From Actinoalloteichus fjordicus (GTDB lineage Bacteria; Actinomycetota; Actinomycetes; Mycobacteriales; Pseudonocardiaceae), in NCBI RefSeq assembly GCF_001941625.1, contig NZ_CP016076.1, positions 3,720,001-3,784,000 of the forward strand: a stretch of 64,000 nucleotides of DNA, in the 5' to 3' direction. Of the stretch, positions 2,571 to 64,000 are shown piece after piece; the first letter of the stretch is position 1; each line of letters starts with the position of its first letter. The notes under the pieces are model-generated. The model saw only the letters and a program-made list of their open reading frames with translations. It made no database searches and was not told where the DNA came from. The position numbers were made by a program, and so were the translations under genes.

Positions 2571-3821
2571 CTAGGCCGGACTCACGACCCGCGCCCGGGA
2601 TTCGAACACCGCGACCGCGCCGTCGACGCCGCCGGCCGCGCGGATGTTCTCCTGCAGCGCCTCGATGGCCTTGCGGTAGTGCGGCGCGTCCGCCTCCCGC
2701 ACCGCAGCCAGCAGCACCTCACCGTCGATCTGATCGTGACGGATCAGCGGGCCGACGCCCAGTTCGGCCGCCCGCTCGGCGATCATCTGTTGTTCCGGCG
2801 AGTGCGGCACCATCACCGGTGTGACCCCATAGTGCAATGCCTGCATCAGGCTGCCCATACCGGCTTGGTTGATGATCATTCTGGCGTGTGGCAGCACGGC
2901 GAGATGCGGAAGCCATTGGTGCACCTCGACGTTCTCCGGGACAATCCCCAGTTCCTCGGGCCGCACCCGGCTGCCTAGGGTGAGCACCACATGCCATGGT
3001 TGGCCTTCGAAGGCCTGCGCGCACATCCGGAAGAACTCGGGGCGCTCGTTCGTCGTGGTGCCGAGCGAGACCAGGACCACCGGGAGACCGCTGGCAGGGG
3101 GCGTCCAGCCAGTCTCCGGTTCCTTTCGCTCCAGGCACGGCCCGACGAAGGAATGGCGTTCGTCGAAGGTCTCGTAGCCGAGCTGGAACTCTTTGGGGAA
3201 GAAGGCGAGGTTGGCCTCCTCAGCGGGATCGTTCACCAACGCGGGGTCGCTAAAGCCGTGCGCTCCGAGGTAGGTCATCAGCGCGGTGAAGTACTCGGCC
3301 ATCGCGGGGTGCTGCGGATCGAACTGTTCGCCGACCTGTTCGAAGAGCTTGACGAGAAACAAGAACTCGTTACTGGAGGCGAAGGTGGGGAACAACTCGA
3401 TCGCAGGCCGATTCCACTTCCTGGAGAGAACCCGCCCAGAGAGGAACGTGACGAGGTCGTAGGCCACCACGTCCGGTGGGGCGTCGGCGAAGTGGGCCTC
3501 GATCGAGGCGGTGGTGGCCTGTGCCTCCTGGACCGCCCGGAGGGGTTGGCGGAACATGTGCTCGACGTCGAATAGATCGCCGGGCGGTGTGGTGGACAAT
3601 GGGGATTCGTAGATCAGCACCTCGGCACCGGTTGCCGCGACCGTCTCGGCCAGATTCTCGGTGATGGCGTAAACCACCTCATGACCTCGGCGCACCAACT
3701 CGGTCACCAGCGGCAGGGTGGGCATGACGTGACCATGCATCGGAAGCGGCATCATCAGGATACGCAGACCCGTCACCGGCTCCGCCTCGTTGGTGTCCGA
3801 ATGCAATGAACGTGGCGACAT
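2571..3821 (-). CDS. Macrolide-type glycosyltransferase (MGT/OleD-like, GT1 fold)
   Basis: A 416-residue soluble enzyme predicted to move a sugar from an NDP-sugar to a hydroxyl of the polyketide. The N-terminal acceptor domain opens with LPMHGHVMPTL, where His29 matches the catalytic base of OleD-like enzymes. Asp122 (VAYDLVTF) matches its partner Asp. The C-terminal donor domain has VLVSLGTTTNERPEFF (about 249-264) and the nucleotide-binding region VHQWLPHLAVL (about 300-310) through PHSPEQQ. The usual HAG of this motif reads NQAG, placing Gln319 at the position of a normally conserved His. The ATG start is preceded by AAGGAG five bases away. The gene follows the thioesterase-bearing PKS gene by 159 bp on the same strand. 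It could glycosylate the aglycone as tailoring, or inactivate the product intracellularly as OleI/OleD-type resistance enzymes do; the sequence does not decide. No sugar-biosynthesis gene is in the window. Confidence 0.9.
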   Translation of the reverse strand: MSPRSLHSDTNEAEPVTGLRILMMPLPMHGHVMPTLPLVTELVRRGHEVVYAITENLAETVAATGAEVLIYESPLSTTPPGDLFDVEHMFRQPLRAVQEAQATTASIEAHFADAPPDVVAYDLVTFLSGRVLSRKWNRPAIELFPTFASSNEFLFLVKLFEQVGEQFDPQHPAMAEYFTALMTYLGAHGFSDPALVNDPAEEANLAFFPKEFQLGYETFDERHSFVGPCLERKEPETGWTPPASGLPVVLVSLGTTTNERPEFFRMCAQAFEGQPWHVVLTLGSRVRPEELGIVPENVEVHQWLPHLAVLPHARMIINQAGMGSLMQALHYGVTPVMVPHSPEQQMIAERAAELGVGPLIRHDQIDGEVLLAAVREADAPHYRKAIEALQENIRAAGGVDGAVAVFESRARVVSPA

Positions 3822-3980: not shown

Positions 3981-16271
<12,291 letters not shown>

Positions 16272-19200: not shown

Positions 19201-20990
19201 CGCAGCGGTCGGTCTAGCCTGCCTGCGAATCCGGCGCAGGCCGCGTCGAAGGCGTCGGCGAATGCGGCGTGCGCGGCGTGCAGCTCACGACCCATGCCGG
19301 GGCGCTGCGCCCCTTGGCCGGAGAACAGGAACGCGGATCTGCCCGCGACCCGGCTGCCGGTGATCACCCGAGGATCGGGTGCGCCGTCGGCCAGCGCGGT
19401 CAGGCCGCGCATCAGCTCGGACCGGTCATCACCGATGACGACCGCGCGGTGCTGGTGCGCGGCCCGGGTGGCGGCCAGCGACCAGCCGATGTCCGAGGAT
19501 CGAAGTTCCGGCCCGGCCTCGGCGGCCGCGAGCAGGCGGGCGGCCTGGGCGGGCAGCGCTTCGCGCGTTCTGGCGGACACCGGCCAGGCGAGCACCTCGG
19601 GGGCGCTCGCGCCGCTGCCTGCTGATTCCGAGCCGGGGTCGGGATCGGTGGGCGCCTCCTCCAGCACGATGTGGGCGTTGGTGCCGCTGATGCCGAACGA
19701 GGAGACCCCCGCTCGGCGCGGTCGGCCCGGGTCCGGCCAGGTCTGCTCCTCGGTGAGCAGCCGGACCGCGCCACTGTCCCAGTCGACCTGGGCGGACGGC
19801 CGGTCCACGTGCAGGGTCCTCGGCAGGGTGCGGTGCCGAAGCGCCTCGACCATCTTGATCACGCCTGCGACCCCGGCGGCCAGCTGGGTATGGCCCAGGT
19901 TCGACTTCACCGAACCGAGCCACAGCGGGCGGTCCGCCGGTCGGTCCCGGCCGTAGACGGCCAACAGCGCCTGCGCCTCGATCGGGTCGCCCAGGGCGGT
20001 CCCGGTGCCATGGGCCTCGACGGCGTCCACCTCGGCTGGTGTCAGGTCGGCGGCGGCGAGGGCGGCGCGGATGACCCGCTGCTGGGAGGGACCGTTCGGT
20101 GCGGTGAGGCCGTTGGAGGCGCCGTCGGAGTTGACCGCCGAGCCTCGAACCACGGCCAGCACGGTCCGGCCCTCGCGGCGGGCCTCGGAGAGGCGCTGTA
20201 CCAGCAGCATGCCGACGCCTTCGGACCAGCCGGTGCCGTCGGCCGCCTCGGCGAACGGTTTGCACCGCCCGTCCGGGGCGAGTCCGCCCTGGCGGCCGAA
20301 CTCGCGGAAGGCCATCGGGGAGGCCATGATCGTCACCCCGCCGACCAGCGCGAGCGAGCACTCGCCCGCCCGCAGTGCCTGGGCGGCCAGGTGCAGTGCC
20401 ACCAGCGACGAGGAGCAGGCGGTGTCCAGCGAGACGGCGGGGCCCTCCAAGCCGAGCAGGTAGGCGATCCGGCCGGAGATCACGCTGCCCGCGCTACCGG
20501 TGAGCAGGTGCCCGGCGACCTCCTCGGGCACCTCGGCGAGCCCGGCGCCGTAGCCGCTGGTGGCTGCGCCGAGGAACACCCCGGTGCGAGTGCCTGCCAG
20601 CGCGGTCGGGTCGATGCGGGCGCGTTCCAGCAGTTCCCAGGAGGTCTCCAGGACCAGCCGCTGTTGCGGGTCCATGGCCAGCGCCTCGCGTGGGGAGATC
20701 CCGAAGAACGCCGGGTCGAAATCACCGGCGGCGTGGACGAACCCCCCGGTTCCCCGTATCCCCCAGCCCCGGTCGACGGGGAAGTCGCCCATGGCGTCGC
20801 CGCCGTCGCGGACGAGTTGCCACAGCTCCTCCGGAGAACCGATGCCGCCGGGATAGCGGCAGCTGGTGGCGAGGATCGCGATCGGCTCGCCCGCCGCATC
20901 GGACAGCTCGCGGACTCGCCGCTGCAGCCGCCCGTTCTCCTTGAGCGAGGCACGCAGCGCCTCGACGAGTTCCTCGGTCGACGTGGTCAT
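16278..20990 (-). CDS. PKS-D: type I polyketide synthase, single module KS-AT-KR-ACP
   Basis: A 1570-residue monomodular synthase. The N-terminal docking helix 1-32 ([19 protein letters not shown]) is of the class 1b type, unlike the other PKS genes here. KS about 33-446 has TACSSS; AT 552-856 has GHSIGE and HAFHS, so malonyl; KR 1123-1310 has no LDD motif but has [15 protein letters not shown], whose Trp marks an A-type ketoreductase; ACP 1401-1476 has [11 protein letters not shown]. There is no DH, no ER and no FW-type dimerisation element after the AT. The C-terminal dock 1504-1570 ends [12 protein letters not shown], with a short duplicated segment ([10 protein letters not shown]) before it. 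Predicted product: a hydroxyl at C7. The ATG follows the PKS-C stop by one base, with GGAGGG inside the end of PKS-C, so translation is probably coupled. Confidence 0.95.
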
Positions 20991-20991
20991 C

Positions 20992-23900
20992 TCATCCCTC
21001 CACTCGCGCGGTCGGGGACGCCCCGAGCGCCCGCTCGATCAGGGCGGCGGCGTCGAGGTCGTCGTACTCCTCGCCCGCACCGGCGTCCGCACCGGCGGCG
21101 TCGCCATCGGCAAGTCGCAGCAGCGTGTCCAGCAGGCCCGCCTTGCGGAACCGCTCCAGCGGTATCCCCGCGAGGGCGCGGCGCAGCTCGGCCTCGGCGG
21201 GGTCGGCCGGTTCCGCCGATTCCGGCAGAATTCCGGCGAGTAGCTCCCCGGCCAGTGCGGCCGGTGTCGGATGGTCGTAGACGAGCGTGGCGGACAACCG
21301 CAGCCCGGTGGCGGCGGTCAGCGCGTTGCGGAACTCCACGGCCGTCAGCGAGTCGAAGCCGAGATCGGCGAAGGCCCGTTCCACGTCGAGCTCGTGTGCG
21401 TCGTGGTACCCGAGTGCACCCGCTGCCTGCTCGCGGACCAGTCGCACCAGCATTCCGTGCCGCTCGCCGGGTTCCGTTGCGGCGAGCGCCGCCCGCAGTG
21501 CCGATCCGGAGCCGGTGTCCGCAGGCTGCTTCTCCCGCAGCGCGGCCGCCACCTCGGGAAGCTCGCCCAGCAGCGGGCTGGGCCGCAACGCGGTGAAACC
21601 GGCGGCGAACCGGGACCAGTCCACATCGGCCACGGTCACCGTGGTTCGGTCCTCCGCCAGGCTGCGGCGCAACGCGAGGATCGCGAGCTCCGGTGCCAGC
21701 AGTCGCAGACCGAGCCGTTCCAGCCCCTGCGCTGCCTCCGGACCGGAGACCATGCCGCCGCCGCCCCACGGTCCCCAGGCAACCGCCGTGGCCCTGAGTC
21801 CTCGGGCCCGGCGCAGTTCGGCGAGCCCGTCGAGGTAGGCGTTGGCCGCCGCGTAGGCGCCCTGCCCGCCGCTGCCCCAGATGCCCGCGATGGAAGAGAA
21901 GAGTACGAAGGCGTCGAGTTCGGTGTCGGCGAAGGCGGCATCGAGGTTGCGCGCCCCGGCCACCTTCGCCGCGAGGACCCGTTCGAATTGGTCGGAGGAG
22001 GTCTCGGCGAGGGTGTTCACCTCGGACACCCCGGCAGCGTGCACCACCACCCGGACCTGTTCGCCCTGTTCGGCCAGCCCGGACAACAACGCGGACAGCG
22101 CTTCGGCGTCCGAGGCGTCGAAGGCCGCGAGGGTCACCCTGACGCCGTACCCGCGCAACTCCTCGGCGAGTTCCTCCGCACCGGGAGATCCGGGGCCTCG
22201 GCGGCTGGTGAGCACCAGGTGCTCGGCGCCGCCGCCTGCGAGCCAGCGGGCGACCTGCCCGCCCAGCGCGCCGGTCCCGCCGGTGACGAGCGCGGTGCCG
22301 CGGGTCGCCCACTCCGGGCCGCCGGTCGCGGCACCCACCCGGACCAGACGTCTGCCGAACACCCCGGCGGACCGCACGGCAAGCTGGTCCTCGCCTGCTG
22401 CGCCGGACAGCAGGCCCGGCAACCGGCGCAGCACGCCCTGGTCCCGGGTAGCAGGCAGGTCGATCAGGCCGCCCCAGCCACGCGGGAACTCCAGGGCCGC
22501 GACCCGGCCCAGGCCCCACACCATGGCCTGCCCCGGATCGGTGACCGGGTCGCCCGGCCCGGTGCCGACCGCCCCCCGGGTGAGGCACCACAGCGGCGCT
22601 CCCAATCCGGCCCCGGCAAGGGCCCGCAGCAGGGCCAGCAGGGCATCGGCTTCGGCGCCGCCCTGCCAGCCTGCGGGGAAGAGCACTCCGGTCACGCCTT
22701 CGGCTGCGGCAGCCAGTTTCGCCGGGTCGTCCAGCGCATCCCGGTGCGCCAACCGAACCAGGTCGGACGCAGGACCGGTCAGTTCGGCGGTCACCTCGGC
22801 CAGGTACTCGTCGGCGGACTCCGGTTCGATCAGCAGCCAGCTGCCGAGTGCCACGGGTTCGCCGGGTGCGGCGAGCGGGGACCACCCGACGTCGTAGCGC
22901 CACGAGTCCGCGGTGGACGAATCGTGCAGCCTGCGTCGCCAGGAGTTCAGCGCAGGCAGCACCTCGCCGAGCGGGGCGTCCTCGGTCAATCCCAGGGTGT
23001 GGGTCAGATCGGCGAGGTCGGCCCGCTCCACGGCTTCCCAGAGCACCGTGTCCTCGGCGGCGGCTGTCGGCACCGACGGATCGAGCCAGAGCCGCTGTCG
23101 CTGGAAGGGGTAGGTGGGCAGCGCGATCCGCCTGCCGCCGCTCACGACGGGAGTCCAGTCCACCCGGCCGCCGTGCACGTGCCAGGCGCCCAGCGCGGCG
23201 GTGAAGGTGTCCTGCTCATCGGTGCTGTCCGCCCGCGCGGCCGGGATGAAGGACCGCTCCTGGTTCGCAGGCAGTCCGGCGGCGGCCAGCGCGGTGAGCA
23301 CGGCGTCCGGGCCGAGTTCGAGGAAGCGGGTGACCTGAGCGGAGTCCAGGTAGGAGACGGCATCGCCGAAGCGGACGGTGGCCCGGACCTGCTCGACCCA
23401 GTAGCCGGGTGAGCACAGCTCGGCCTCGGTGGCGGGTGCACCGGTCACCGTCGACACCACGGCCGTCCGGGGCGGTTGGAAGTCCACGGTGGCCATGACG
23501 CGGCCGAAATCGGCGAGCATCGGTTCCATCCGGGGCGAGTGGAAGGCGTGCGAGACGCGCAGCCTGCGCACCTTCCGGCCTCGGGCGGCGAACTCCGCCC
23601 CGATCGCCAGCACAGCGTCCTCGTCACCGGAGACCACCACCGAGGCCGGACCGTTCACCGCCGCCAGGGTGGCGGCCCCTGGCACTTCGGCTCCAGCCGG
23701 CACTTCGGCTCCAGCCGGCACTTCGGCCCCGGACTGCGCCGCGATCCCCGACAGCAGCGGCCGCACCTCGTCGGCGGTGGCCTGCACCGCGACCATCGCA
23801 CCGCCGGAGGGCAGCGCCTGCATCAACCTGCCTCGGGCGGCGACCACCCGGCAGGCGTCCGCCAGGGAGAACACCCCCGCGACGTGCGCTGCGGCCAGTT

Positions 23901-26900
23901 CGCCGATGGAGTGGCCGACCAGGTAATCGGCGCTGAGGCCGTGTGCTTCGGCGAGTCGGAACAGCGCCACCTCGTAGGCGAACAGCGCGGGTTGGCCGTA
24001 GCCGGTGTGGTCCAGCAGCGCGGCCTCCGGTGATCCCGGCTCGGCGAACACCAGCTCGGCGAGCGGGCGGTCCAGTTCGGCATCCAGGTAGGCGGCCGCA
24101 GCGTCGAAGGCCTCGGCGAACACCTCGGAGGCGGCATACAGTCCCCGGCCCATCCCGGCGTGCTGCGCTCCCTGACCGGTGAACAGGAAGGCCGCGCGGG
24201 CGCCCGGTCGCGCGATCCCGGTGAGCACACCGGCGGTCTGCTCGCCCTCGGCGAGGGCACGCAGCCCGGCCGTCAGCTCGCCGCCGTTCGCGCCCGACAC
24301 CGTCGCGCGGTGCTCCAGCGTGGCGCGGTGGTGCGCGAGCGTGCGGGCCACATCGGCCGGGTCCGCCTCGCCGATGCCCGCAAGGAGGTTCGCGGCCTGG
24401 GCCCGCAGTGCCTCGGCGGTGCGGGCGGACACCAGCCACGGCGCGGGCCGGTCCGGTCGGTCGGCCGGTTCGACACCGGTCGGCGATTCGGGCGCCTGTT
24501 CCAGAATGGTGTGCGCGTTGGTGCCGCTGATCCCGAACGAGGAGACCGCAGCACGGCGCGGCCTGCCGGTCTCGGGCCAGGACATCGGTTCGGTGAGCAG
24601 CCGCACCGCGCCTGCCGACCAGTCCACCTTCGTCGTCGGCCGGTCGGCGTGCAGCGTCACCGGGAGCAGGCCGTGCCGGATGGCCTGGACCATCTTGATG
24701 ACTCCGGCGACGCCGGCCGCCGACTGGGTGTGTCCGATGTTGGACTTGATCGACCCGAGCCACAGCGGCCGCTCCGGTTCGCGGCCGAGGCCGTACCCGG
24801 CGAGCAGGGCCTGTGCCTCCACCGGATCGCCGAGGGCCGTCCCGGTGCCGTGTGCTTCGACGGCGTCCACCTCGGACGATTCCAGGCCGGCGCCCGCCAG
24901 GGCCTGGCGGATCACCCGTTGCTGCGCGGGACCGTTGGGGGCGGTGAGGCCGTTCGAGGCGCCGTCGGAGTTGACGGCGGAGCCGCGCACGGTGGCCAGT
25001 ACGTCGTGGCCCAGTCGCCGCGCCTGGGACAGCCGCTCCACCAGCAGCAGGCCGACCCCTTCCGACCAGCCGGTGCCGTCGGCCTCGTCGGAGAACGCCT
25101 TACACCGGCCGTCCGGGGCAAGCCCGCCCTGGCGGCCGAACTCCAGGAAGGCGTTGGGAGTGGACATCACGGTGACCCCGCCGACGACGGCGAGCTCGCA
25201 CTCCCCGCCGCGCAGCGACTGGGCGGCCAGATGCAGCGCGACCAGCGAGGAGGAGCAGGCGGTGTCCAAGGAGATGGCGGGGCCCTCGAGCCCGAGCAGA
25301 TAGGCGATCCGGCCGGAGGCAACGCTGCTCGCACTGCCGGTGAGCAGGTGTCCCGCGACACCGTCGGGGACCTCGGTCAGCGCGGCTCCGTACCCGGAGG
25401 AACCGGCGCCGATGAACACCCCGGTCGCGCTGCCGCGCAGGGCGGTGGGGTCGATTCCGGCGCGTTCGAACAGTTCCCAGCAGGATTCCAGCAGCAGCCG
25501 CTGCTGCGGGTCCATGGCCAGCGCCTCGCGCGGCGAGATCCCGAAGAAGCCGGGGTCGAAGGTGTCGGCGTCGTAGACGAAGCCGCCCTGCCGCTCGGCC
25601 GCGCTTCCGCCGAGGCCTGCGAGGTCCCAGCCTCGGTTCTCGGGGAACCGCGAGATCGCGTCGGTGCCGTCGACCACCAGCTGCCACAGGTCTTCCGGGG
25701 AGCGGACCCCGCCGGGGAACCGACAGCTCATCGCGACGATGACGATCGGGTCCTCGTCGCCAGCGGTGTCGATGACCGGTCCGGCAGGCGTCGGGCCGTC
25801 CTCGCCGAGCAACTCCGTTCGGACCAGGCGGGCGAGTGCGGCGGAGTTCGGGTGGTCGAAGGCCAGGGTGGTCGGCAGCGCGAGCCCGGTGGCCTCGGTC
25901 AGTCGGTTGCGCAGTTCCACGGCGGTCAGCGAGTCGAATCCGAGGTCCGAGAAGGCGCGTTCCGGGGCGATCGCGGCCGCGTCGCGGTGGCCGAGCACCA
26001 GGGCCACCTGTTCGCGGACCAGTTCGTCGATCGCCCTGTCCCGGTCGGCGGCAGGCAGGCCCGCCAGCCGTTGCCGCAACCGGTCGCCGGTTCCACCACC
26101 CGATGCGCCGTCCGCGACGGCCTCGACTGCGGCGGGGACGCCTGCCAGCAGCGGGCTGGCTCGTAGGGCGGTGAAGCCCGGTGCGAAGGCGGACCAGTCC
26201 ACATCGGCCACCACGGTGGTGGTCAGCTGGTGCTCCACCGAGCTGTGGAGTGCGGTGACGGCGGCGTCGGGGTCCATCGGGCGCAGGCCTCGGCGGCGCA
26301 GGGCCTCCTCGGCTCCGTCAGCGGCGGCCATCCCGTCGCCGGACCACGGTCCCCAGGCGATCGAGGTGGCCGCGAGGCCGAGGGACCGGCGATGCTCGGC
26401 AAGCGCGTCGAGATAGGCGTTTCCTGCGGCGTAGGCCGCCTGGCCTCCGCTGCCCCAGATCGCCGCGATCGAGGAGAACAGCACGAACGCATCGAGTTCG
26501 GTGTCCGCGAGCACCTCATGGAGGTGGCGTGCCCCGGTGACCTTGGCGTGGATCATCTCGGCGAGATCGGCAACGGAGGTCTCGGCCAGCGACCGGAGTC
26601 CGGTCTGCCCGGCCGCATGCACCACTGCACGCACCGGGGTGCCCTCGGCCGCCAGCCGGGCGGTCAGGGCGGCGAGCGCCTCGCGGTCGGTGACATCGCA
26701 GGCGAGGACCTCGGCACGGGTACCGAGTCCGGTCAGCTCCTCGGTGAGGGCGGCGGCGCCCGGCGCGGCAGGCCCGCGCCTGCTGGTGAGCACCAGGTGG
26801 TCGGCTCCGGAGCGGGCCAGCCAACGGGCGATGTGCGCTCCGAGCCCGCCGGTGCCGCCGGTGACGAGCACTGTTCCGCGCGGCGACCAACCGGTTGCAG

Positions 26901-29900
26901 GCCCGGCCAGCGGTGCGGGCACGAGCCTGCGGCCCAGCACGGCGGATCCTCGGATGGCGACCTGGTCCTCGGTGCCGTCCGCGAGCACTCGGCACAACCG
27001 GGCGAGGCCGCGCCGGTCGAGGTTCGCAGGCAGGTCGATCAGCCCGCCCCAGCGGGTGGGTTGTTCGAGCGCCGCAACCCGGCCCAGGCCCCAGAGTTGG
27101 GCCCGTTCTGGGTCGGAGAGCGGATCGGAGCGCCCGGTGGTGACGGCGCCGTGGGTCAGCACCCACAGTTGCGCCCGGGAGTCCTCGGTGTCCAGGAGAT
27201 GCAGCACGGTGAGCAGTTCATCCACCCCGGGGTCGGCCAGGATGATCTGCTGCGCGGTGTCGCGGGTGAGTGCCTCGGCGAGGTCGTCGTCCGAGAGACA
27301 CAGCGGGGTGACGGTGGCACCGCCCACGCGCAGTGCCTCGGCGATGGCGTCGGTGTCCTCGGCAGCGCTTCCCGCCACGAGCAGCCACTCGCCTTCGGGG
27401 GTGTCGGGGCCGAGGTCCAGCAGCGGCTGCCAGTTCACCCGGTAGCGCCAGGATTCCAACTCAGACTGTGCGGCGAGCCTGCGACGCCAGGCGTTCATGG
27501 CGGGCAGCACGTCCCGCAGCGGCGCCTGGTCCACCCGCAGGGTGCCTGCCAGCGCGTCGAGGTCCTGTTCCTCGACGGCGGCCCAGAAGGCACCGTCGGT
27601 TCGGGTGTCGTATTCGGTTGTCGAGTGGGCGGCGGGTTCTGGCCAGTAGCGCTGGCGGTGGAAGGCGTAGGTGGGCAGGTCGATCCGCCGGGCACCGGGC
27701 AGCAGTGCGGCCCAGTCCAGCGGGGTGCCGGTGGTGTGCAGGGCGGCCATCGCCCCGACCAGGGTCTCGGCCTCCGGCCGGTCCTTGCGCAGCGCAGACA
27801 CCACCGTGGCATCACCGACGATCTCAGCGACCATCGATGTGAGCACGGCTTGCGGACCCAACTCCAGAAAACGTGTCACCCCGGTACGGTGCAAAGCCTC
27901 GATACCGTCGGCGAACCGAACGCACTCCCGCACATGCCGAACCCAATAACCAGCGGTCGAGATCTCCTCGGCCGCCACCTCACCCGAGACCAACGACACC
28001 ACCGGAAGCCGCGCCGACTCGAACCGAACACCCTCCGCCACCCCGGCGAACTCCACCAACATCGGATCCATCAGATGCGAATGGAACGCATGCGACACCA
28101 CCAGCCTGCGAGTCTTGCGACCCAAGCTGGCGAAATGCGCCGCCACCGCCGACACCGCGACCTCGGCACCGGACACCACCACCGACCCCGGACCGTTCAC
28201 GGCCGCAATACCCACCACATCCGACAACAGCGGCCGCACCTCGTCCTCCGACGCCGCCACCGCCACCATCGCCCCACCCTCGGGCAACGCCTGCATCAAC
28301 CGACCACGCGCCCCCACCAGCCGACACGCATCCTCCAGCGAAAACACCCCCGCGACATACGCAGCAGTGATCTCCCCCAACGAATGCCCCGTCACCACAT
28401 CCGGACGAACACCCCACGACTCCACCAAACGGAACAGCGCCACCTCAAACGCAAACAAACCAGCCTGCGCAAACACCGTCCGATCCAAAACAGAACCAGA
28501 GCCGGAATCGGAATCCTCGAACACCACCTCGCTCAACACACCTGGCAACAACCCGTCAAAACCCGCACACACCGCATCAAAAGACTCCGCGAACACCGGA
28601 AACGCGCCGTACAACTCCCGGCCCATCCCCACCCGCTGCGCACCCTGACCGGAGAACAGCACGGCCAAGCGGCCGGGCCCGGCGGCGATGCCGGTCACGA
28701 CCCGTGGATCGACACGGCCGTCCGCAAGCGCCCCCAGGCCTGCGATCAGTTCCTCGCGGTCGCCGCCGATCACCACCGCGCGATGCGCATGCACCGATCG
28801 CGTGGTCGCCAGTGCACAGCCCACGTCGACAGGATCGATCTCCGGAGCATCCTCCACAAAGGACCGCAGTCGCGCGGCCTGCGCCCGCAGCGCCTCCGGG
28901 GATCGCGCCGAGACCGCCCAGGGCGTCACCGACACCGGCATCCGCACCGGCTCGGCTCCCGGCTCCGCAGGTACCTCCTCGAGCAGTAGGTGCGCATTGG
29001 TGCCGCTGACCCCGAACGAGGACACCCCGGCCCGCCTCGGCCGGTCGGTCACAGGCCACGGGGTCTGCTCCGTCAGCAGCGCGATCGCGTCGGAGGACCA
29101 GTCGACGTGCGGGGACGGCGCGTCCACGTGCAGCGTCTTCGGCAACACCCCGTGCCGCATCGCCTGCACCATCTTGATCACACCGGCAATGCCCGCCGCA
29201 GCCTGCGTGTGCCCGAGATTCGACTTCACCGAGCCCAACCACAACGGCTGTCCGTCCGGCCGATCCCGCCCGTAGGTCGCCAACAGCGCCTGCGCCTCGA
29301 TCGGATCGCCTAGGCTCGTCCCGGTCCCGTGTGCCTCGACGGCGTCCACCTCCGAGGCGTCGAGACCGGAGTTCGCCAGGGCCTGCCGGATCACCCGCTG
29401 CTGGGAGGGACCGTTCGGCGACGTCAGGCCGTTCGAGGCGCCGTCGGAGTTCACCGCAGAACCCCGCAGCACCGCCAACACCGGATGCCCGTTGCGCCGC
29501 GCGTCGGACAGCCGTTCCAGCAGCACCAAACCGAGGCCCTCTGACCAGCCGGTACCGTCCGCCGCCTCGGCGAACGCCTTGCAGCGGCCGTCGGCGGCCA
29601 GTCCGCGCTGTCGGCTGAACGCCACGAAGGCACCCGGGGTGGCCATCACCGTGGCCCCGCCCGCGAGTGCGAGATCGCATTCCCCCGAGCGCAGCGACTG
29701 CGCCGCCAGGTGCATCGCCACCAGCGAGGAGGAGCACGCGGTGTCCACCGTGACCGCCGGGCCCTCCAGCCCGAAGGCGTAGGCGACCCGGCCGGAGACG
29801 ACGCTGGCCGCGTTGCCGGTGCCGGAGTGCCCCTCGCCTGCGTCGACGGCGCCCATCAGCGCCAGCTGGTAGTCCTGCCCGTTGGTGCCGACGAAGGCAC

Positions 29901-32900
29901 CTGCCCGGCTGCCGCGCACGTCGATCGGATCGATGCCTGCGCGTTCGAACAGCTCCCAGGAGCCTTCCAGCAGCAGTCGCTGCTGTGGGTCCATCGCCAG
30001 TGCCTCGCGCGGCGAGATCCCGAAGAAGCCGGCGTCGAACCCGGCGGCGTCATCGAGGAAGCCGCCTTCGGCGACGTAGCTGGTACCGGGGTGGTCCGGA
30101 TCAGGGTGGTAGAGCGAATCGACATACCAGCCTCGGTCGCGCGGGAAGCCGGCGATCGCGTCGGTTCCGGTGGCGAGCAGCTCCCACAGCTCGTCGGGGT
30201 TGTGCACCCCGCCTGGGAAACGACAGCTCATCGAGACGATCGCGATCGGCTCGCCGGTCTCGGCGTGGGCCGAGGACGGCGCTGCTGCCGATCCGCCTGT
30301 TCCCACGATCTGCTCGGCCAGGTGGCCAGCCAGCAGGGCGGGGGTCGGATAGTCGAAGACGAGGGTGGCGGACAGCGGCAGGCCGCTCGCGGCGCCGAGC
30401 AGGTTGCGCAGCTCGACGGCGGTCAGCGAGTCGAAGCCGAGATCACGGAAGGCCCGGTCCGCGTCGATCGCTGCCGAACCGGAGTAGCCGAGTATCCCGG
30501 CCGTCTGTGCCCGGACCAGTTCAAGCAGCGCCGCGTGCTGTTCGGCCTGCGTTCGGCCGGCCAGCACCTCGTGGAGCCCGAGATCCGCTGCCGACGAGGC
30601 CGGGGCGACGACGCCTGCGGCTTCGGGCAGCTCGCGCAGCAGCGGGCTGGGGCGGGTGCGGGAGAGCACCGGGGTGTAGCGACTCCAGTCGATATCGGCG
30701 ACGACCACATCGGCGCCGGGATGCCAGACCGCCCGGCCCAACGCGGTGACCGCGAGGTCCGGCGACATCGGCAGCACCCCGCCGCGCCGGGTGCGCTGGG
30801 CCGCCAGTTCGTCGGCGGCCATTCCAGTCCCCGCCCAGCTGCCCCAGGCGATCGCGGTGGCAGGCAGGCCCTGTCCGGTGCGCCACTGCGCGAAGGCGTC
30901 CAGTGCCGCGTTGGCCGCCGCGTAGCCGCCCTGCCCCGCAGCACCCACCGCGCCGGCGAGTGAGGTGAACAGCACGAACGCCGAGAGATCCGTACCCGAG
31001 GTCACCTCGTGCAGGTTCATCGCAGCCTGGACCTTGGCCTCCATCACGGCGGCGAGGCGGTCGGTGCTCAGTCCGGCCAGCACGCCGTCGTCGAGTACGC
31101 CTGCGGCGTGCACGACGGCGCTGAGCGGGGCGTCCTGGGGTACCGCCGCGAGCACCGCGCGCAGTTGTTCCGTCGAGGCCGCATCACCGGCGAGGGCGTC
31201 GGCGCGGACTCCGAGATCGGTCAGTTCCGCCACGAGTTCGGCGGCGCCGGGAGTGTCCGGACCTCGGCGACTCGCGAGCAGGATGTGTTCCGCGCCGTTG
31301 CGGGCGAACCAGCGGGCCGCGTGCGCGCCGAGCGCACCGGTACCGCCGACGATGAGCACCGTGCCACCGCCTCGCCAGCCGTCCGGACCAGCCGTGAGCC
31401 TCGGCGCCCGAACCAGACGACGGGCGAGCAGTCCGGTGCCTCGGACCGCTATCTGGTTCTCCTCGCCCTGAGCCAGGGCGGTGAGCACCCGGCGGATGCC
31501 GCGCTCGTCGGTCGCCGAGGGCAGGTCGATCAGCCCGCCCCAGCGGTCCGGGTGCTCCTGCGCGATCACGCCGCCGAGGCCCCACAGCGCGGCCTGCACC
31601 GGGTGTCGCACCGGGTCCTGCTCACCCACGGAGGTCGCGCCGTCGGTGAGCAGCCACAGCGGCGCCGTCACGCCGGTGTCCCCGAGTGCCTGCACGAGGG
31701 TGGTGGTGGCCGCAAGACCGACGGTCAGTCCCGGATGATCCGGGTGCTGCCTCTCGTCCAGCGCCAGCAGCGAGACCACCCCGGCGAAGCTCTGCCCGGT
31801 GTGCGCCCGCAGGGCTGCGGCGACGGTCTCCCGGTCTGCTGTCGCTCCCGGCTGTTCGAGCACCACGGGTTCAGCGCCGATGGCGGCGAGACCGTCGGCA
31901 AGCGCGGTCGACCAGTCGGCTCCGGTGTGCCCCGGTGGGACGATCAGCAGCCAGCGACCGGCGGGGCGTAGGTCCTCGACGACGAGCGGCGCCCAGGAGA
32001 TCCGGTAGCACCAGGAGTCCACGGTGGACAGCGATTCGCGTTCGCGGTGCCACTGCGCGAGGGCGGGCAACACCTGGTCGAGCGGCGCGTCATCGGCCAC
32101 CCCGAGGGCGCGGGCGAGCTCCCGGTCGGCCACCAGGTCCCAGAACGGGTCCTCGGCAGCGGCGGCGGCGGGCTCGGAACCGGCGAGCCAGTATCGTTCC
32201 CGCTCGAAGGCGTAGGTGGGCAGGTCGATCCGTCGGGCGCCAGGCAGCAGTGCGGCCCAGTCCAACGGGGTGCCGGTGGTGTGCAGGGCGGCCACGGCGG
32301 CCAGCAGCGTTTCGGCCTCGGGCCGGTCCTTGCGTTGGGCGGGCACGGCCGTGGCGTCCTCGACGATCTCGCCGATCATCGAGGTGAGCACTGCCTGTGG
32401 ACCCAACTCCAGGAACCGCGTCACCCCGGTGCGGTGCACCGTCTCGATGCCATCGGCGAACCGAACACAGTCCCGCACATGCCGCACCCAATAACCAGCG
32501 GTCGAGACCTCCTCCCCGGCCATCTCACCCGACACCAATGACACCAGGGGAAGCGCCGCAGGCCGATAATCCACCGACTCCGCCACCGCCGCGAAATCAG
32601 CCGACATCGGCTCCATCAACGCCGAGTGAAACGCATGCGACACCACCAAACGACGAGTCCGACAACCCAGACCGGCGAAATGCCGCTCCACCACCGCGAC
32701 CGCATCCTCGGCACCCGACACCACCACCGACCGAGGACCATTCACCGCCGCGACATCCACCACACCCGACAGCACCGGACGAACCTCGTCCTCCGCCGCC
32801 CCGATGGCCACCATCACCCCACCAGCGGGCAACGCCTGCATCAACCGACCCCGCGCCGCCACCAGACGACACGCATCCTCCAGCGAGAACACCCCCGCGA

Positions 32901-34989
32901 CATACGCAGCAGTGATCTCACCCAGCGAATGCCCCGTCACCACATCCGGACGAACACCCCACGACTCCACCAAACGGAACAGCGCCACCTCAAACGCAAA
33001 CAATCCAGCCTGCGCAAACACCGTCCGATCCAACACAGAACCAGCACCAGAATCGGAATCGGAATCCGAGCCCTCGAACACCACCTCACTCAACACACCC
33101 GGCAACAACCCATCAAAAGCGGCACACACCGCATCAAAAGAATCCGCAAAAACCGGAAACGCGCCATACAACCCACGACCCATCCCCACCCACTGCGCAC
33201 CCTGACCCGAGAACAGAACGGCCAAGCCACTTCCCCGCCCAGCCACACCCGACGACACCGACGGATGCCTCTCCCCAGCCACCACCGCACGCAGACCCGC
33301 CACCACACCCACCCGATCGGCAGCCACCACCACCGCACGATGCTCCAACTCCGCGCGCGAGACACCGAGGGAGTAACCGAGGTCCGTGAGGGCCAGTCCG
33401 GGGCTCTGCTCGACGAAGGACAGCAGGCGGGCCGCCTGCGCGGACAGCGCCGCCGAGGAGCGCGCCGAGACACGAAGCGGGACGAGCGCAGCGGGCTCGG
33501 TCGACGGCTCCGGCTTCTCGGCAGCCGTCGCCGTCTCGGAATCCGCTGCCTGTCGGGAACCCACGGCCTGCCGGGAATCCGCTGCCTTCTCGGCGTCCGC
33601 GACAGCCGCCGGGGCCTGTTCCAAGATGACGTGCGCGTTGGTGCCGCTGACCCCGAAGGCGGAGATGCCGATCCGGCGCGGGCGTTCGGTCGCGGGCCAG
33701 GCCTGCGCCTCGCGCAGCAGCTCGACGTTCCCGGTGGACCAGTCCACGTGTGAGGTCGGTTCGGTCACGTGCAGGGTCTTGGGCAGTGTGGAGTGCTTCA
33801 TCGCCAGCACGGCTTTGATGACGCCGGTGACCCCGGCTGCGGCCTGGGTGTGCCCGATGTTCGATTTCAGGGTGCCGAGCCAGAGCGGCTGGTCGGCGCG
33901 CCGGTCCTTGCCGTAGGTGGCCAGCAGCGCCTGTGCCTCGATCGGGTCGCCCAGCGTCGTCCCGGTCCCGTGTGCCTCCACCGCGTCCACATCGGCGGCG
34001 GCCAGCCGGGCATCGATCAGTGCCTGGCGGATGACCCGTTCCTGGGAGGGACCGTTCGGCGCGGTCAGCCCGTTCGACGCGCCGTCCTGGTTCAACGCCG
34101 AGCCTCGGAGCACGGCGAGCACCTCGTGCCCGTTGGCGCGGGCGTCGGAGAGCCGCTCCACCATCAGCAGGCCGACGCCCTCACCCCAGCCGGTGCCGTC
34201 GGCGTCATCGGAGAACGCCTTGCATCGGCCGTCGACCGCGAGGCCGCGCTGCCTGCTGAACTGGACGAACGAGCCCGCATTGGCCAGGACCGCCACCCCG
34301 CCCGCGATCGCGAACTCGCACTCCCGTCTGCGCAGGGCCTGCGCGGCCAAGTGCAGGGCCACCAGCGAGGAGGAGCAGGCGGTGTCGATGGTGACCGCAG
34401 GACCCTCCAGCCCGTACACATAGGACAACCGGCCCGAGGCGACGCTGGCGGAGATGCCGGTGAGCAGGTGCCCCTCGACGTCCTCGGGAACGCTGCGCAG
34501 CCCGGTGGCGTACCCGGAGAGCCCGGCACCGACGAACACCCCGCCTGCGGCGCCCTTCACCGAGGTGGGCGCGATACCGGCGCGCTCGAACAGCTCCCAG
34601 GTCGCCTCGAGCAGCAACCGCTGCTGCGGGTCCATCCCGAGTGCCTCGCGCGGGGAGATGCCGAACAGCGAGGCGTCGAACCAGCCCGCGTCGTGCAGGA
34701 ACGCCCCTTTCCTGGTGTAGCTGGTGCCGGGCGCGTCCGGGTCCGGGTTGTACAGCGCCTCGAGGTCCCAGCCCCGGTCCTCCGGAAACCCGGTGACGGC
34801 GTCCTCGCCTGCGGACAGCAGCTCCCACAGATCCTCGGGGGAGCGGATGCCGCCGGGGTACCGGCAGCTCATGGACACGATGGCGATCGGCTCGTGGTCC
34901 GCCGCCTCGCGCTCGCGGAGCCGTTCGCGCGTCTCGTGCAGATCGACGGTGACTCGCTTCAGGTACTCGCGGAGCTTGTCCTCATTCAC
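20992..34989 (-). CDS. PKS-C: type I polyketide synthase, three ketoreducing modules
   Basis: A 4665-residue synthase that builds the main polyol segment. The GTG start at 34989 is preceded by AAGGTG. Class 1a N-terminal dock 1-31 ([15 protein letters not shown]). C1: KS 32-458, AT 589-899, dimerisation element about 941-983, KR 1209-1403, ACP 1481-1559. C2: KS 1581-2006, AT 2109-2413, element 2467-2503, KR 2704-2886, ACP 2981-3059. C3: KS 3079-3498, AT 3600-3926, element 3984-4023, KR 4231-4416, ACP 4507-4583. C-terminal dock 4594-4665 ([17 protein letters not shown], later AAALIERAL), which differs in type from those of PKS-A, -B and -D and suits the PKS-D N-terminus. All three ATs carry HAFHS, so malonyl. 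No DH or ER is present. Each module should leave a hydroxyl. Confidence 0.96.
20996..21001 (-). promoter_or_regulatory. Ribosome binding site of PKS-D inside the end of PKS-C
   Basis: GGAGGG on the minus strand overlaps the last codons of PKS-C; the PKS-C TGA is followed by one base and then the PKS-D ATG. This is a classic arrangement for coupled translation and equal protein amounts. Confidence 0.75.
21240..25755 (-). other. Module C3: KS-AT(malonyl)-KR(A-type)-ACP
   Basis: KS with TACSSS (about 25255) and [10 protein letters not shown] with [20 protein letters not shown] and HAFHS; it also holds an in-frame tandem repeat of GAEVPA not seen in the other ATs. The post-AT dimerisation element reads [18 protein letters not shown]. 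The KR lacks LDD and has [17 protein letters not shown], the A-type Trp signature. ACP serine in [11 protein letters not shown] (about 21350). Predicted hydroxyl at C9. Confidence 0.88.
23681..23734. repeat. 18-bp tandem repeat, three copies, in C3 AT
   Basis: Unit GGCACTTCGGCTCCAGCC at 23681-23698, again at 23699-23716, and a third shortened copy. It encodes GAEVPA repeats between LLSGIAAQS and [10 protein letters not shown]. The frame is kept. Confidence 0.85.
25810..30250 (-). other. Module C2: KS-AT(malonyl)-KR(A-type)-ACP
   Basis: KS with TACSSS (about 29735). AT with GHSLGE and HAFHS; half of this AT is identical at DNA level to E1. Dimerisation element [18 protein letters not shown]. 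The KR has [15 protein letters not shown] in place of LDD and [19 protein letters not shown], the A-type signature; the usual AAAN reads AAGN, keeping the Asn. ACP serine in [11 protein letters not shown] (about 25929). Predicted hydroxyl at C11. Confidence 0.88.
27983..28500. repeat. AT tract copy 2 (identical to 13879-14396)
   Basis: The C2 partner of the perfect 518-bp tract in the E1 AT. Outside it the two AT domains diverge quickly, for example in the linker and in the Ser-Asp repeat, so the boundary is sharp. Confidence 0.85.
32501..33366. repeat. AT tract copy 1 (about 99% identical to 43361-44226)
   Basis: 866 bp of the C1 acyltransferase match B4 at a constant offset of 10860 bp with only about six mismatches, including a 468-bp run without differences. 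Identity falls off abruptly at 33367. Confidence 0.85.
33036..33078. repeat. Ser-Asp microrepeat in C1 AT
   Basis: Hexamer units (GGAATC on the plus strand) encode [11 protein letters not shown] between EVVFEG and [10 protein letters not shown]. The same length is seen in the B4 copy, as expected from the shared tract. Confidence 0.7.
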
Positions 34990-35064: not shown

Positions 35065-38000
35065 TCACGAGGTGCCGAACTGCTTGTCGATGAAGTCGAA
35101 CATCTCGTCGTCGCTGGCTGCGCCGATCCGGTCGGTCACCGAGTCGCCCGCGTGGTCGGCCTTGAGCTCGTCCAATCGGGACAACATGGCCCGCAGTCGG
35201 CTGCTCACCGCAGCCTGCGCCGCATCGTCGGAGGTGAGATCGGAGATCGCCGCGTCCAACCGGTCCAGCTCGGCATTCATCGAGGCGCCGGGCTGCTCGT
35301 CGGCATCGGCGAGCTGCGCCTGGAGGAATTCCGCCATATCCGCTGCGGTCGGGTGGTCGAACAGCAGGGAGCCGGGCAGGCGCAGCTCGGTGGCAGCGGC
35401 CAGCCTGTTGCGCACGTCCAGGGCCATCAGCGAGTCGAATCCGTAGTCCTTGAACGCGCGAGCCGGATCGACCTCCTGTGGGCCCGCGTGCCCGAGGGTC
35501 CGCGCGACCTGTGATCGGACCAGTTCCAGCAGTTCCAGTCTCCGCTGGGCGGGCAGCATTCCGGCGAGCCGGTCGCGCAGCCCGGCACCCGCCCTGGCGG
35601 CTGTCGAGGACCGCCGGCGGGCGGGAAGCAGCCCGCTGAGCACGGCCGGAACGGCATCGCCCTGCCCACGCAGGGCGACCCGGTCGAACTGGGCGGGCAG
35701 GGTGACCGTCTCTCCGGTGGCCAGCGCCGCGTCGAACAGGGCGAGCCCGGTCTCCGAGGACATGGCCACCACGCCGCCTCGGCCGAGCCGAGCACGGTCG
35801 GCGTGGTCCAGACCGCCGGTCAGCTCGCTCGTCTCGGCCCACAGACCCCAGGCCATCGACAATGCGGGCAGACCCTCGGCGCGTCGGCGCAGCGCCAGCG
35901 CGTCCAGGTAGGCGTTGGCCGCCGCGTAATTGCCCTGCCCCGGGGTGCCGAGGGTGCCCGCAAGCGAGGAGAACAGCACGAACGCGGAGAGATCCAGCCC
36001 TCGGGTGAGCTCGTCGAGGTGACGCGCGGCGTCCACCTTGGGCCGCAGCACGCGATCCACGGATTCCGTGGTCAACGAGCCGATCACGCCGTCCTCGAGC
36101 ACCCCGGCGAGGTGAACGACACCACGCAACGGCCACTCGTCGGGGATCTCGGCGAGCAGGGCGGCCAGTTCCTCCCGGTCGGCGGCGTCGCAGGCCACCA
36201 CCTCGGCCTGCGCGCCGAGCGCGGCGAGTTCGGCCACCAGTTCATCGGCTCCGGGTGCCCGGGTACCCCGGCGACTGCTCAGCACCAGGCGTCGAACCCC
36301 GTGCACCTGCACCAGGTGTCGGGCGACGAGCCCGCCGAGGACTCCGGTGCCACCGGTGACGAGCACGGTGGAGGCGGGATCGAAGGCGACTGCCCCACCG
36401 TCGGACGATTCGGGCAGCTCGACCGCCCTCGGCACGAAGGTCGCACCGCCTCGGATCGCCACCTGTGGCTCGGCGGCGGCAAGCACCCCGGGCAGGACGT
36501 CTGCCTCGGTCCCGTCGTCCCCGAGGTCGACCAGCAGGAGGCGACCGGGGTTCTCCGACTGCGCCGTGCGCAGCAGCCCCCAGATCGCGGCCGCACCGGG
36601 GTCCGGCGTCACGCCCGCGCAGCTGACCGCGTGCCGGGTGAGCACGACCAGCAGCGCGTCGGCGTACCGGTCCTCGGCCAGCCAGTCCTGCACCAGCCGT
36701 AGTGCCGCGTGCACTGCGGTATGCGGGTCGCCGCCCGCCAGCGGCGCGATCACGACCTCGGCAGGAACCTCGCCCAGGTCGGCGAGCGAACCGACCGGGC
36801 GGGCCGACAGGGCGGTCGCACTCACCGGGACGCCGGTGTCCAGCAGTGCCCACGGCCGGTCCGCGCCGTTCTCGGGCGCGGCGGTGAGCCGGAGCGGCTG
36901 CCAGGCCAGTCCCAGGAGCGGCCCGGCCCCGGTCCGGTCACCGCCGAGCCTGCTCCGGTCGAGCGGACGCAGTCGGACCGCCGTCGCGGACAGCACCGGG
37001 TTCCCGTCCTGATCGGCAACCGTGACCGACACCTGGTCCTCGCCTGCCACGCCGAGGTGCACCCGGATGCGGCCTGCGCCGGGCGAGTACAGCCGGACCC
37101 CGGTCCAGCCGGTGGGGACCAGGCCTCGGCTCTGGTCGTCGGCGATGAGCAGCGCGGTGGTGAGCAGACCGGGATGCAGCCCGAACCGGGCGGCGACCGG
37201 GTCCTCCTCCTCGGGAAGGTCGATCTCGGCGAACAGGTCGGTGTCTCGGCGCCAGAGGGCACGCACGGTGCCGAACCGCGATCCGAGCGCAGTGCCCCCG
37301 TCGGCGATCCGCTGATGCAGCTCATCGGGGTCGGCTTCGACCGCGTCCGGCGGCCAGTTGCCAAGGTCGGTGCCGGGGTCGGCGAATTCCTCGGCAAGCA
37401 GGCCTGCTGCGTAACGGGTCCACCGCCCGGTCCCGTCGTCCTCGTGCGGACGTGCGTGGACGGTCAGCGGGCGGTGCCCCGACTCGTCCGGTGCGGCGAC
37501 GGCGACCTGCACCTGCAAGGCAGCGTCGTGAGACAGCGGCAGCGGCAGCAGCACGTCGAGCTGGGCGAGGTGGCCGAAACCGACCCGGCCCCCGGCCTGT
37601 AGCGCCAGTTCTGTCCACAGCGCCTCGGGCACCACGGTGACGCCGTCGACGGTATGATCGGCCAGCCAGGGCTGGCCGGGCACCGACAGCCGTCCGGTCA
37701 ACACCACCCCGTCGGCTTCGGCGAGGTCCACCGCCGCTCCCAGCACCGGATGGTCGGCGTCGGCGAGGCCCAGCGACCCTGGGTCGCCTGCGCCTGCCGT
37801 TCCGAGGGACACCTCGGGCCAGTAGCGGCTGTGTCGGAAGGGATAGGTGGGCAGTTCGACGTGCCGAGACCGGTGCCCGGCGAACGCGGCCGACCAGTCG
37901 ATCCGCCTGCCGTAGATCCAGGCCTGGGCGAGGCTCTCGTACAGCTGCGCGAGTCCGCCCTCGTCCCGGCGGAGTGTGCCGACGACCAGTGCCTCGACCT

Positions 38001-41000
38001 CGACGGTGTCCAGCGTGTCGTGCACGGGCATGGTCAGCACCGGATGTGGCGAGGCCTCCACGAAGGCGGTGTATCCCTCGGCTGCCAGCGCGGCGATCGC
38101 GGATTCGAAGCGGACGGTCTCCCGCAGATTCCGATACCAGTACCCGGCGTCGAGCTCGGCGGTGTCGATCCGGCCGCCCGTCACGGTGGAGTAGAACCCG
38201 ATGCCGCTGCCGCGCGGCGCGACGTCGGCCAGGGCCGTGAGCAGGTCCGCCTCGATCCGCTCGACCTGCGCCGAGTGCGAGGCGTAGTCCACCGGGATCC
38301 GCTTCGCCCGGATGCCGTCCGCCTCGCACTCCGCGGCGAACGCGGCCAGTGCCTCGGGGTCGCCGGACACCACCACGGCGCGGGGACCGTTCACCGCGGC
38401 CACCGACACCCCGCCGCCGAACTCGACGAGTCGAGCACGGACCTCGGCCGCAGGCAGGCCCACCGAGTACATGCCGCCGTGCCCGGCCAGGGTCTCCGCG
38501 ATCAACCGGGATCGCAGGCACACCACCCGGGCACCATCGGTCAAGGACAGGGCGCCCGCGACCACGGCGGCGGCGATCTCGCCCTGTGAGTGGCCGACCA
38601 CCGCATCCGGTGTCAGGCCGAAGGACTCCCAGACCGCGGCCAGGGAGACCAGCATGGCGAACAGCACCGGCTGCACCACGTCCACCCGGTCCAACAGGTC
38701 CTGATCACCGAGCGCGTCGTAGACCGACCAGTCCACCCAGCGGTCCAGTTCTTCGGCGCACTCGGCGAACCTGGCGGCGAACGCCGGGGACGACTCCAGC
38801 AGTTCCCGGCCCATTCCGATCCACTGTGATCCCTGGCCGGGGAAGACGAAGGCCACCGCGCCGGGGCGGTGCGCGGCGCGCGATTCGGCCTCGCCTGTGG
38901 CCAGGGCGCGCAGCCCCGTCAGCAGTTGCTCCCGACCGGTGCTAGCAACGACGGCGCGGTACTCGAAGGTCGACCGGGTGGTGGCCAGCTCGTGCCCCAC
39001 CGCAGCCACATCGGCCTCGGGGTTCTCCGCCGAGAAGGACAGCAGCCGTTCGGCGTAGGCACTCAGGGCGGCTGCCGAGCGCGCCGAGAGCACCCACGGC
39101 ACCAGGGCGGGGGCCTGGCCCGCCGGTTCGGGAAGCAGGTCGGCAGGCCCCTCCTCGATGATCACATGTGCGTTGGTGCCGCTGATGCCGAAGGAGGAGA
39201 TCCCGGCCCGTCGCGGACGGTCCCCGACCGCCCACGGCACCGGCTCAGTGAGCAGCCGAACCGCACCGGCCTCCCAGTCCACATGGGACGAGGGCGCATC
39301 GACGTGCAGTGTCCTGGGCAGCACGCCGTGCCGCATCGCCTGCACCATCTTGATCACGCTGGCCACTCCGGCCGCCGCCTGGGTGTGCCCCAGATTCGAC
39401 TTGACCGAGCCCAGCCACAGCGGCTGCTCGACGGATCGATCCCTGCCGTAGGTGGCGAGCAGCGCCTGCGCCTCGATCGGGTCGCCGAGGGTGGTCCCGG
39501 TGCCGTGCGCATCCACTGCGTCCACATCGGACGGCGCCAGCCCCGCGTCGGCCACCGCGCGGCGGATCACCCGCTGCTGTGAGGGGCCGTTCGGTGCGGT
39601 CAATCCGTTCGACGCGCCGTCGGAGTTCACCGCCGAGCCCCGCAGCACGGCGAGCACCGGGTGCCCGTTGCGCCGTGCATCGGACAACCGCTCCACCAAC
39701 AGCACACCGACGCCCTCGGACCAACTCGTACCGTCGGCGGCATCGGCGAAGGGTTTGCACCGGCCGTCCGCAGCGAGGCCGCGCTGCCTGCTGAACTCCA
39801 CGAACACGGTGGGGGTGGCCATCACGGTGACCCCGCCGACCAGGGCCAGCGAGCACTCGCCCTGCCGAAGTGCCTGGCGGGCCCAGTGCAGCGCCACCAG
39901 TGAGGAGGAGCAGGCGGTGTCGATCGAGACGGCAGGCCCCTCCAGCCCGAGTGCGTAGGCCACCCGGCCGGAGACGATGCTCCCGGCCGCGCCGACGCTG
40001 ACATGCCCTTCCGCATCGTCCCCGCCGCCGGAGAGCAGGGCCCCGTAGTCCTGGTACATGACGCCTGCGAACACCCCGGTCGGGCTGCCGCGCAGTGCGG
40101 CCGGATCGATGCCCGCCCGCTCGATCGCCTCCCAGGAGGTCTCCAGCAGCAACCGCTGTTGCGGATCCATCGCCAGCGCCTCGCGCGGGGAGATGCCGAA
40201 GAAGCCCTCGTCGAAGCCGCCGACGTCGTCCAGGAAGCCACCGCTGCGGGTGTAGCACTTGCCGGGTGTGCCGGGGTCGGGATCGTAGAGCGCGTCGAGG
40301 TCCCAGCCTCGGTCGGCGGGGAACTCGGCGATGCCGTCGCGCCCCTCGGCAAGCAGCTGCCAGAGCTGTTCCGGCGAGTCGACCCCGCCCGGATAGCGGC
40401 AGGCCATGGCGACGATGGCGATCGGCTCGTCGTCGCCATCGGGTTGGCTGCGACCGGTCGGGGCGAGGTCGTCGAGAGGTGCCGCGCCGACGAACAGCTC
40501 GCCGTCCACCAGTTCGGCCAGCCGTTCCGGGGTCGGGTGATCGAAGATCAGGGTCGCGGGCAGTCGCAGCCCCGTCGCCTCGGCGAGGCCGTTGCGCAGC
40601 TCGAGGGCGATCAGCGAGTCGAAGCCCAGTTCCGCGAAGGTCCGGTCGGCGGGCACCGATTCCGCTGAACCGTGGCCGAGTACCGAGGCCACCTGCGCGC
40701 GCACCAGTGCGAGCAGGGCACGCCGCCGATCGGCGGCGGACAGCCCGGCAAGCCGTTGGCGCAGGCCGCCCGCGTCCGCTGCGCCGGTGAGCGCTGCGGT
40801 GCGGCGGCCTGCCGGCACCAGACCGCGCAGGATGCCGGGCAGCGAGGAGCCTTGCGCACGCAGGGCGGTCGGGACGAGCTTGACCGGTACGAGCAGGCAG
40901 TCCCGACCGGAGACCGAGGCGTCGAACAGCGCAAGCCCCTCCTCCGCGGACAACGCCGACACCCCGCCCCGACCCAACCTCGCCGAAGACGCGACGCCCG

Positions 41001-61377: not shown

Positions 61378-64000
<2,623 letters not shown>

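Follow-up and report, generated by a model that had tools for sequence, protein, structure and literature searches.

A dead dehydratase (DH) seventh from the end of a polyketide assembly line is, by analogy of position, already described in two pentaene pathways, those of thailandin and lavencidin (DH7 in each). The available text on thailandin (PMC6273641) places DH7 in ThaBIII of Actinokineospora bangkokensis, seventh from the end and with a hydroxyl at C15; five DH-KR modules (modules 2–6) precede it, the line has 13 extension modules, and the methylmalonyl AT sits in module 6, not 7. Lavencidin (RKGS-A2215A), from Streptomyces lavendulae FRI-5, is a pentaene with a C-14 branch. As set out in the available text on its pathway (PMC12093942), module 7 of 13, in LadA and again seventh from the end, pairs a methylmalonyl-type AT with a KR and a DH that is presumed inactive, the last-module AT is of methylmalonyl type, and a P450 is postulated to convert the C-14 branch into a carboxyl. 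Lavencidin DH7 is reported there with His, Asp and the second His intact, its inactivity being taken from the product, and sequence alone would therefore have missed it. Actinospene DH1, as described, likewise has a conserved sequence, yet the product requires an inactive or skipped DH; activity and motifs thus do not always agree. For demurilactone, the published account argues inactive DHs from the same motifs that we use below.

Here we analyse the DH of module B5 in a PKS locus of Actinoalloteichus fjordicus. The window, that is, the whole stretch of DNA examined, is 64,000 nucleotides long and spans positions 3,720,001–3,784,000 of the 7.12-Mb single-contig genome.

Results

Six PKS genes, all on the minus strand, follow one another as A1, A2, B, C, D and E; A1 and most of A2 lie upstream of the window. 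Motif-based cutting divided them into a KSQ loading module and 16 extension modules. A1 and the first part of A2 contribute two methylmalonyl KR modules each, and a malonyl DH-KR module completes A2; B1–B4 are malonyl-type DH-KR modules with intact DH motifs, and C1–C3 and D are also of malonyl type. AT specificity (malonyl or methylmalonyl) was assigned from the HAFHS/YASHS motif rule. The C-terminus of PKS E is thioesterase-like, as judged by eye.

61378–64000, minus strand: 3′ end of PKS A2 (4866 aa, continuing past the window), third module with intact DH motifs
35065–61338, minus strand: PKS B, 8757 aa, five KS-AT-DH-KR-ACP modules (open reading frame and motifs)
39157–40416, minus strand: B5 KS, active-site DTACSSS (motif)
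37966–38865, minus strand: B5 AT, methylmalonyl type (motifs GHSQGE and YASHS)
36955–37755, minus strand: B5 (module 10) DH, dead by sequence (Pfam, PDB DH matches, motif reading)
35830–36369, minus strand: B5 KR, Ser/Tyr/Asn intact, B-type LED motif (motifs and tree)
35344–35562, minus strand: B5 ACP, DYGFDSL (motif)
20992–34989, minus strand: PKS C, three KS-AT-KR-ACP modules, no DH (motifs)
16278–20990, minus strand: PKS D, one KS-AT-KR-ACP module, no DH (motifs)
3981–16271, minus strand: PKS E, modules E1 (DH-ER-KR) and E2 (methylmalonyl-type AT, dead DH, KR) (motifs)

B5 is a DH module placed right after five DH-KR modules (A2 module 3 and B1–B4) and seventh from the chain end. Six modules (C1, C2, C3, D, E1 and E2) follow it, and by colinearity, with the count starting at the thioesterase, its beta carbon therefore corresponds to C15. 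Its KR clusters with the B2 and B3 KRs (84/93, not starred). The five DH-KR modules ahead of B5 parallel modules 2–6 ahead of thailandin DH7, a system compared here through its published description. B5 differs from thailandin in carrying the methylmalonyl AT in its own module and resembles lavencidin module 7 in this respect; the methylmalonyl-type AT of E2 also matches the lavencidin last module. Both described lines are shorter, with 13 modules against 16 here.

The B5 DH occupies residues 7862–8128 of the 8757-residue protein, in a frame without stops. The original prediction had called it a full-length domain, and it holds: Pfam PKS_DH_N and PS-DH both match above their cut-offs, and a normal fold is predicted (see below). 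Four sites in the domain carry the argument.

37627–37656, minus strand: HxxxGxxxxP motif with the catalytic His, kept (direct reading)
37273–37287, minus strand: LGSRF in place of YGPxF (direct reading and alignment)
37159–37161, minus strand: Thr codon ACC at the catalytic Asp site (PDB alignment, DH alignment, direct reading)
37105–37119, minus strand: VPTGW in place of LPFxW (direct reading and alignment)

The retained HxxxGxxxxP motif, also foreseen, is followed by Glu where Gly is expected. The Thr codon lies within a ten-residue motif at 37147–37176, which stands where the Asp motif is expected; the same codon reads GAC or GAT in the B1–B4 DHs. In alignments with solved PKS dehydratases, this Thr falls, without gaps, opposite the Asp of DxxxH in FluDH1 (6obv) and RifDH10 (4ln9); the HMMER alignment of DEBS DH to B5 slips at this site. 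Of the His/Asp dyad of a competent PKS DH, described as invariant among PKS DHs in the available text of PMC6697708, B5 thus has the His with Thr for Asp, where FluDH1 has His/Asp. The two further motifs of a competent DH, YGPxF and LPFxW, are replaced as listed. The Asp-to-Thr change and LGSRF confirm what the first reading of the sequence had reported, and to these are added the loss of the DxxxH His (now Leu) and of the LPFxW Phe. The losses are also evident against 34 other DHs, in an alignment that covered 28 of 80 loci plus the 7 DHs of the window. A six-residue gap after LLTTALL was considered as damage and dropped, because other Asp-bearing DHs are gapped there too and the loop following the Asp motif is reported to be variable (PMC6697708, available text). 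We conclude that the B5 DH is very probably catalytically dead.

By fold and lineage the domain is nonetheless a PKS dehydratase, with Pfam matches and best structural matches to PKS DHs. An AlphaFold2 model has a mean pLDDT of 92.9 and predicts an intact double-hotdog fold, and Foldseek ranked RifDH10 first (TM-score 0.90), then FluDH1 at 1.6 Å. RifDH10, FluDH1 and DEBS DH (3el6) share this fold with B5 at 36–39% identity and TM-scores of 0.87–0.94, the same range being found against the individual RifDH10 and FluDH1 chains. The PDB matches of B5 include CurK D1169N (5tz7) and H996F (5tz5), both inactive by entry title, which fits the idea that a PKS DH stops working when either dyad residue is lost. 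Like B5, each lacks one dyad residue; they are engineered laboratory mutants, whereas B5 is a natural multi-site loss.

We compared the locus with an orthologous cluster in a same-genus genome, where protein identities are 74.8–79.2% (for the E protein there, which the fetched stretch cuts, the comparison runs from within the first AT onwards). The orthologous B5 DH is 72% identical and repeats LGSRF and the same ten-residue Thr motif. The lesions are therefore neither a sequencing error nor a recent accident. Among the 12 DHs of the two clusters that are presumably active, 60 alignment columns are invariant, and B5 breaks with 16 of them in both species. When the active DHs were withheld one at a time, the withheld domain broke with 0–4 of the 61–68 columns invariant in the rest.

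These changes were then set against a wider sample. The starting set of 202 DH matches was not random: its loci had been picked for likeness to B5, or lay in one of the two clusters or in a second PKS region of this genome. Removing 19 that were not near full length and then 3 identical rows left 180. The catalytic Asp is retained in 174 of these 180 distinct DHs, a sample mostly chosen by likeness to B5. The Tyr of YGPxF is absent in all six Asp-less DHs and in 5 of the 174 Asp-bearing ones (Fisher p = 1.1e-8, an optimistic value because the six rows are four families and the sample is mostly B5-like). The families are the B5 pair, the E2 pair, L085 and L042; the L042 DH has Glu at the Asp site and has also lost the catalytic His. 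Among the five rows with Asp but without Tyr, four also lack the His column. The second PKS region (L009/L010, G000:C1:4003001-4042000), a type I region with five DH matches about 0.25 Mb away, contributed DHs to the counts and to the quick tree only.

Close relatives of B5 are scarce. A 96-residue B5 piece searched against 390 genomes of the family gave 78% identity in the same-genus genome and 46% in the next-ranked genome, with no other match above 56% among the matches listed. Across 80 loci from genome contigs, identity to B5 reached at most 46–47% and no named orthologue was found, although very near records may be absent from that set. Of plasmid records, 123 matched B5, all below 60% identity, the best among the matches listed at 44.7%.

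The cluster holds a second dead dehydratase, with a lesion different in kind.

6552–7319, minus strand: E2 DH, dead by sequence (LLNAALD for LLDAALH; YGPxF stretch deleted)

Its same-genus counterpart reads LLTAALD, with Thr for Asp where the present sequence has Asn, and the YGPxF stretch is absent in both species. With the E2 DH dead, C3 should therefore also retain a hydroxyl.

We then considered where the B5 DH came from. Free DH trees, quick and careful, both place B5 outside the B1–B4/E1 clade, and the careful tree recovers a B1–B4 plus E1 clade (96/80) without B5. B5 instead neighbours L085, an Asp-less DH of Streptomyces harenosi, with support of 89 (quick tree) and 99/92 (careful tree, where the bootstrap did not settle). 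A 14-row DH tree, which is compatible with either placement, omitted the B2 and B3 DHs of the same-genus genome; both are included in the careful tree and in the 180-DH count. Separate import of an AT-DH block as the origin of B5 was withdrawn, because grouping B5 with B1–B4 remains acceptable in an AU test (p = 0.373) and the B5 stem is long. As to the L085 DH itself (L085:4847-5698), it combines losses in a similar way, reading LGPEF and HPALAAAALL; its module leaves a long stretch between DH and KR where an ER may sit, and within the available fragment it does not form a polyene border.

Between the two species, the B5 DH has a dN/dS of 0.360 (0.253–0.503). Six pooled active DHs give 0.305 (0.265–0.351), with a bootstrap probability of 0.202 that B5 is at or below the active value, and relaxed selection on the B5 DH, which we had entertained, is not supported, since the two are not separable. 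A value well below 1 means no sign of free decay: the B5 DH evolves under purifying selection. The KS, AT, KR and ACP of B5, at 0.101, 0.217, 0.136 and 0.075, all lie below it.

Such constraint could mean that the dead domain serves a non-catalytic job, such as shaping the module or guiding the rigid pentaene to the KR and ACP, a reading compatible with a dead dehydratase. The closeness of B5 to the active DHs in dN/dS, the constraint on the dead E2 DH (0.378) and the high-confidence model of an intact fold speak for it, but constraint inside a giant protein may reflect only folding or harmlessness, the neighbouring DH-KR region is similar (0.397) and the comparison spans only two genomes; we regard a job of this kind as possible but doubtful. 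The fuller scenario, in which catalysis was lost before the species split and the domain was then kept for a non-catalytic task such as receiving or steering the ACP that bears the rigid pentaene, and of which the E2 DH would be another example in the same assembly line, we consider rather unlikely.

Directly after the last PKS gene lies a candidate tailoring gene.

2571–3821, minus strand: macrolide-family glycosyltransferase (TIGR01426, 353 bits against a cut-off of 260)

A 79% identical copy stands beside the same-genus cluster. The enzyme may use the C15 hydroxyl, by analogy with thailandin. It may alternatively be a self-protection enzyme, given its resemblance to the OleI self-immunity model (227 bits, below the cut-off of 700). 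Pfam was run on 14 flanking frames and showed neither a sugar pathway nor a P450 such as that postulated for lavencidin.

Other genes around the cluster were recorded as well. A PAS-LuxR regulator, the kind known from polyene clusters, lies at 1792–2484 on the plus strand, with GC by codon position of 0.55/0.43/0.81 and 75% identity in the same-genus genome. Upstream of the PKS genes, a 3-hydroxybutyryl-CoA dehydrogenase, a FabH-like synthase and a crotonyl-CoA carboxylase/reductase stand in a row (L007:9544-12972, minus strand), a trio that suggests alkylmalonyl-CoA supply. A Glyco_tranf_2_4 protein lies between PKS A1 and A2 (L011:483-1397, minus strand). Seven stretches of the same-genus genome (3425001-3546000) were searched, and neither the trio nor the Glyco_tranf_2_4 protein was found in them, the A1–A2 gap included for the latter.

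Discussion

The assembly line would make a polyene macrolide, probably an antifungal one. We think it highly likely that B5, tenth of its 16 extension modules, combines otherwise intact motifs with a dead DH and leaves a 14-methyl-15-hydroxy unit next to a C16–C25 pentaene. The pentaene would be built by A2 module 3, expected to set its first double bond, and by B1–B4. The B5 AT would then supply a methylmalonyl unit, and the B5 KR would turn the beta keto group into a B-type hydroxyl. The B5 DH keeps its predicted fold and catalytic His but lacks both the Asp and the His of DxxxH, as well as the YGPxF Tyr and Pro and the LPFxW Phe, so that no water would be lost and the chain would pass to PKS C as 14-methyl-15-hydroxy. 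Since C1–C3 and D have no DH, the polyol would begin at B5; PKS C is expected to leave hydroxyls at C13, C11 and C9. Some points weigh against this reading: the catalytic His is retained, the domain is under constraint, and motif reading is fallible, as lavencidin DH7 and actinospene DH1 show.

This agrees with the original prediction in two respects. A dead B5 DH was said to leave a 15-hydroxyl, and the module count gives C15 while the KR is intact and B-type; the hydroxyl should be retained, although we infer it, like the loss of DH activity, colinearity and attachment of a sugar there, from sequence. The switch from polyene to polyol was also placed correctly at B5, with five DH-KR modules before it and modules without DH after it. 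The further proposal that point changes in this domain set the length of the polyene is not supported: the next four modules, C1–C3 and D, lack a DH, so that an active B5 would add at most one methyl-branched double bond, and the domain is changed at 16 of 60 columns rather than at one or two. The free trees also put it outside the B1–B4/E1 clade, although membership there is allowed by the AU test.

Dehydration of the C15 hydroxyl after all, by a neighbouring DH or a rebuilt B5 site, would instead give a methyl-branched hexaene. Cross-module dehydration occurs in other PKSs, the catalytic His and predicted fold are in place, and the B5 KR is of the B-type, the usual partner of a DH. In both species, however, DxxxH is altered in both halves, as are residues of YGPxF and LPFxW, the module after B5 has no DH to help, and thailandin DH7, with the same motifs altered, keeps its hydroxyl according to the available text of PMC6273641. 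We therefore judge a hexaene improbable.

That B5 instead carries an isomerase or pyran-forming domain of DH descent is less probable still. Other chemistry is known for some DH-fold domains, and the sequence and structure matches of B5 include the ambruticin dehydratase-cyclase (5o15) and GphF DH1. Isomerase and pyran-forming domains need an enone substrate, however, and the B5 module has no second DH to make one. B5 also keeps the HxxxGxxxxP Pro, whereas a GphF DH1 double variant that includes L1744P (6mbh), a change presumably at that same Pro position, is isomerase-inactive by its title.

A dead dehydratase in B5 thus remains our reading. From it one can predict what this pentaene synthase of 16 modules probably builds as a backbone: a 14-methyl, a 15-hydroxyl and a C16–C25 pentaene. 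B5 would present, visible in its sequence, a lesion of the kind that in lavencidin was deduced from the product. The constraint on the domain raises the question of why dead dehydratases persist in polyene synthases.
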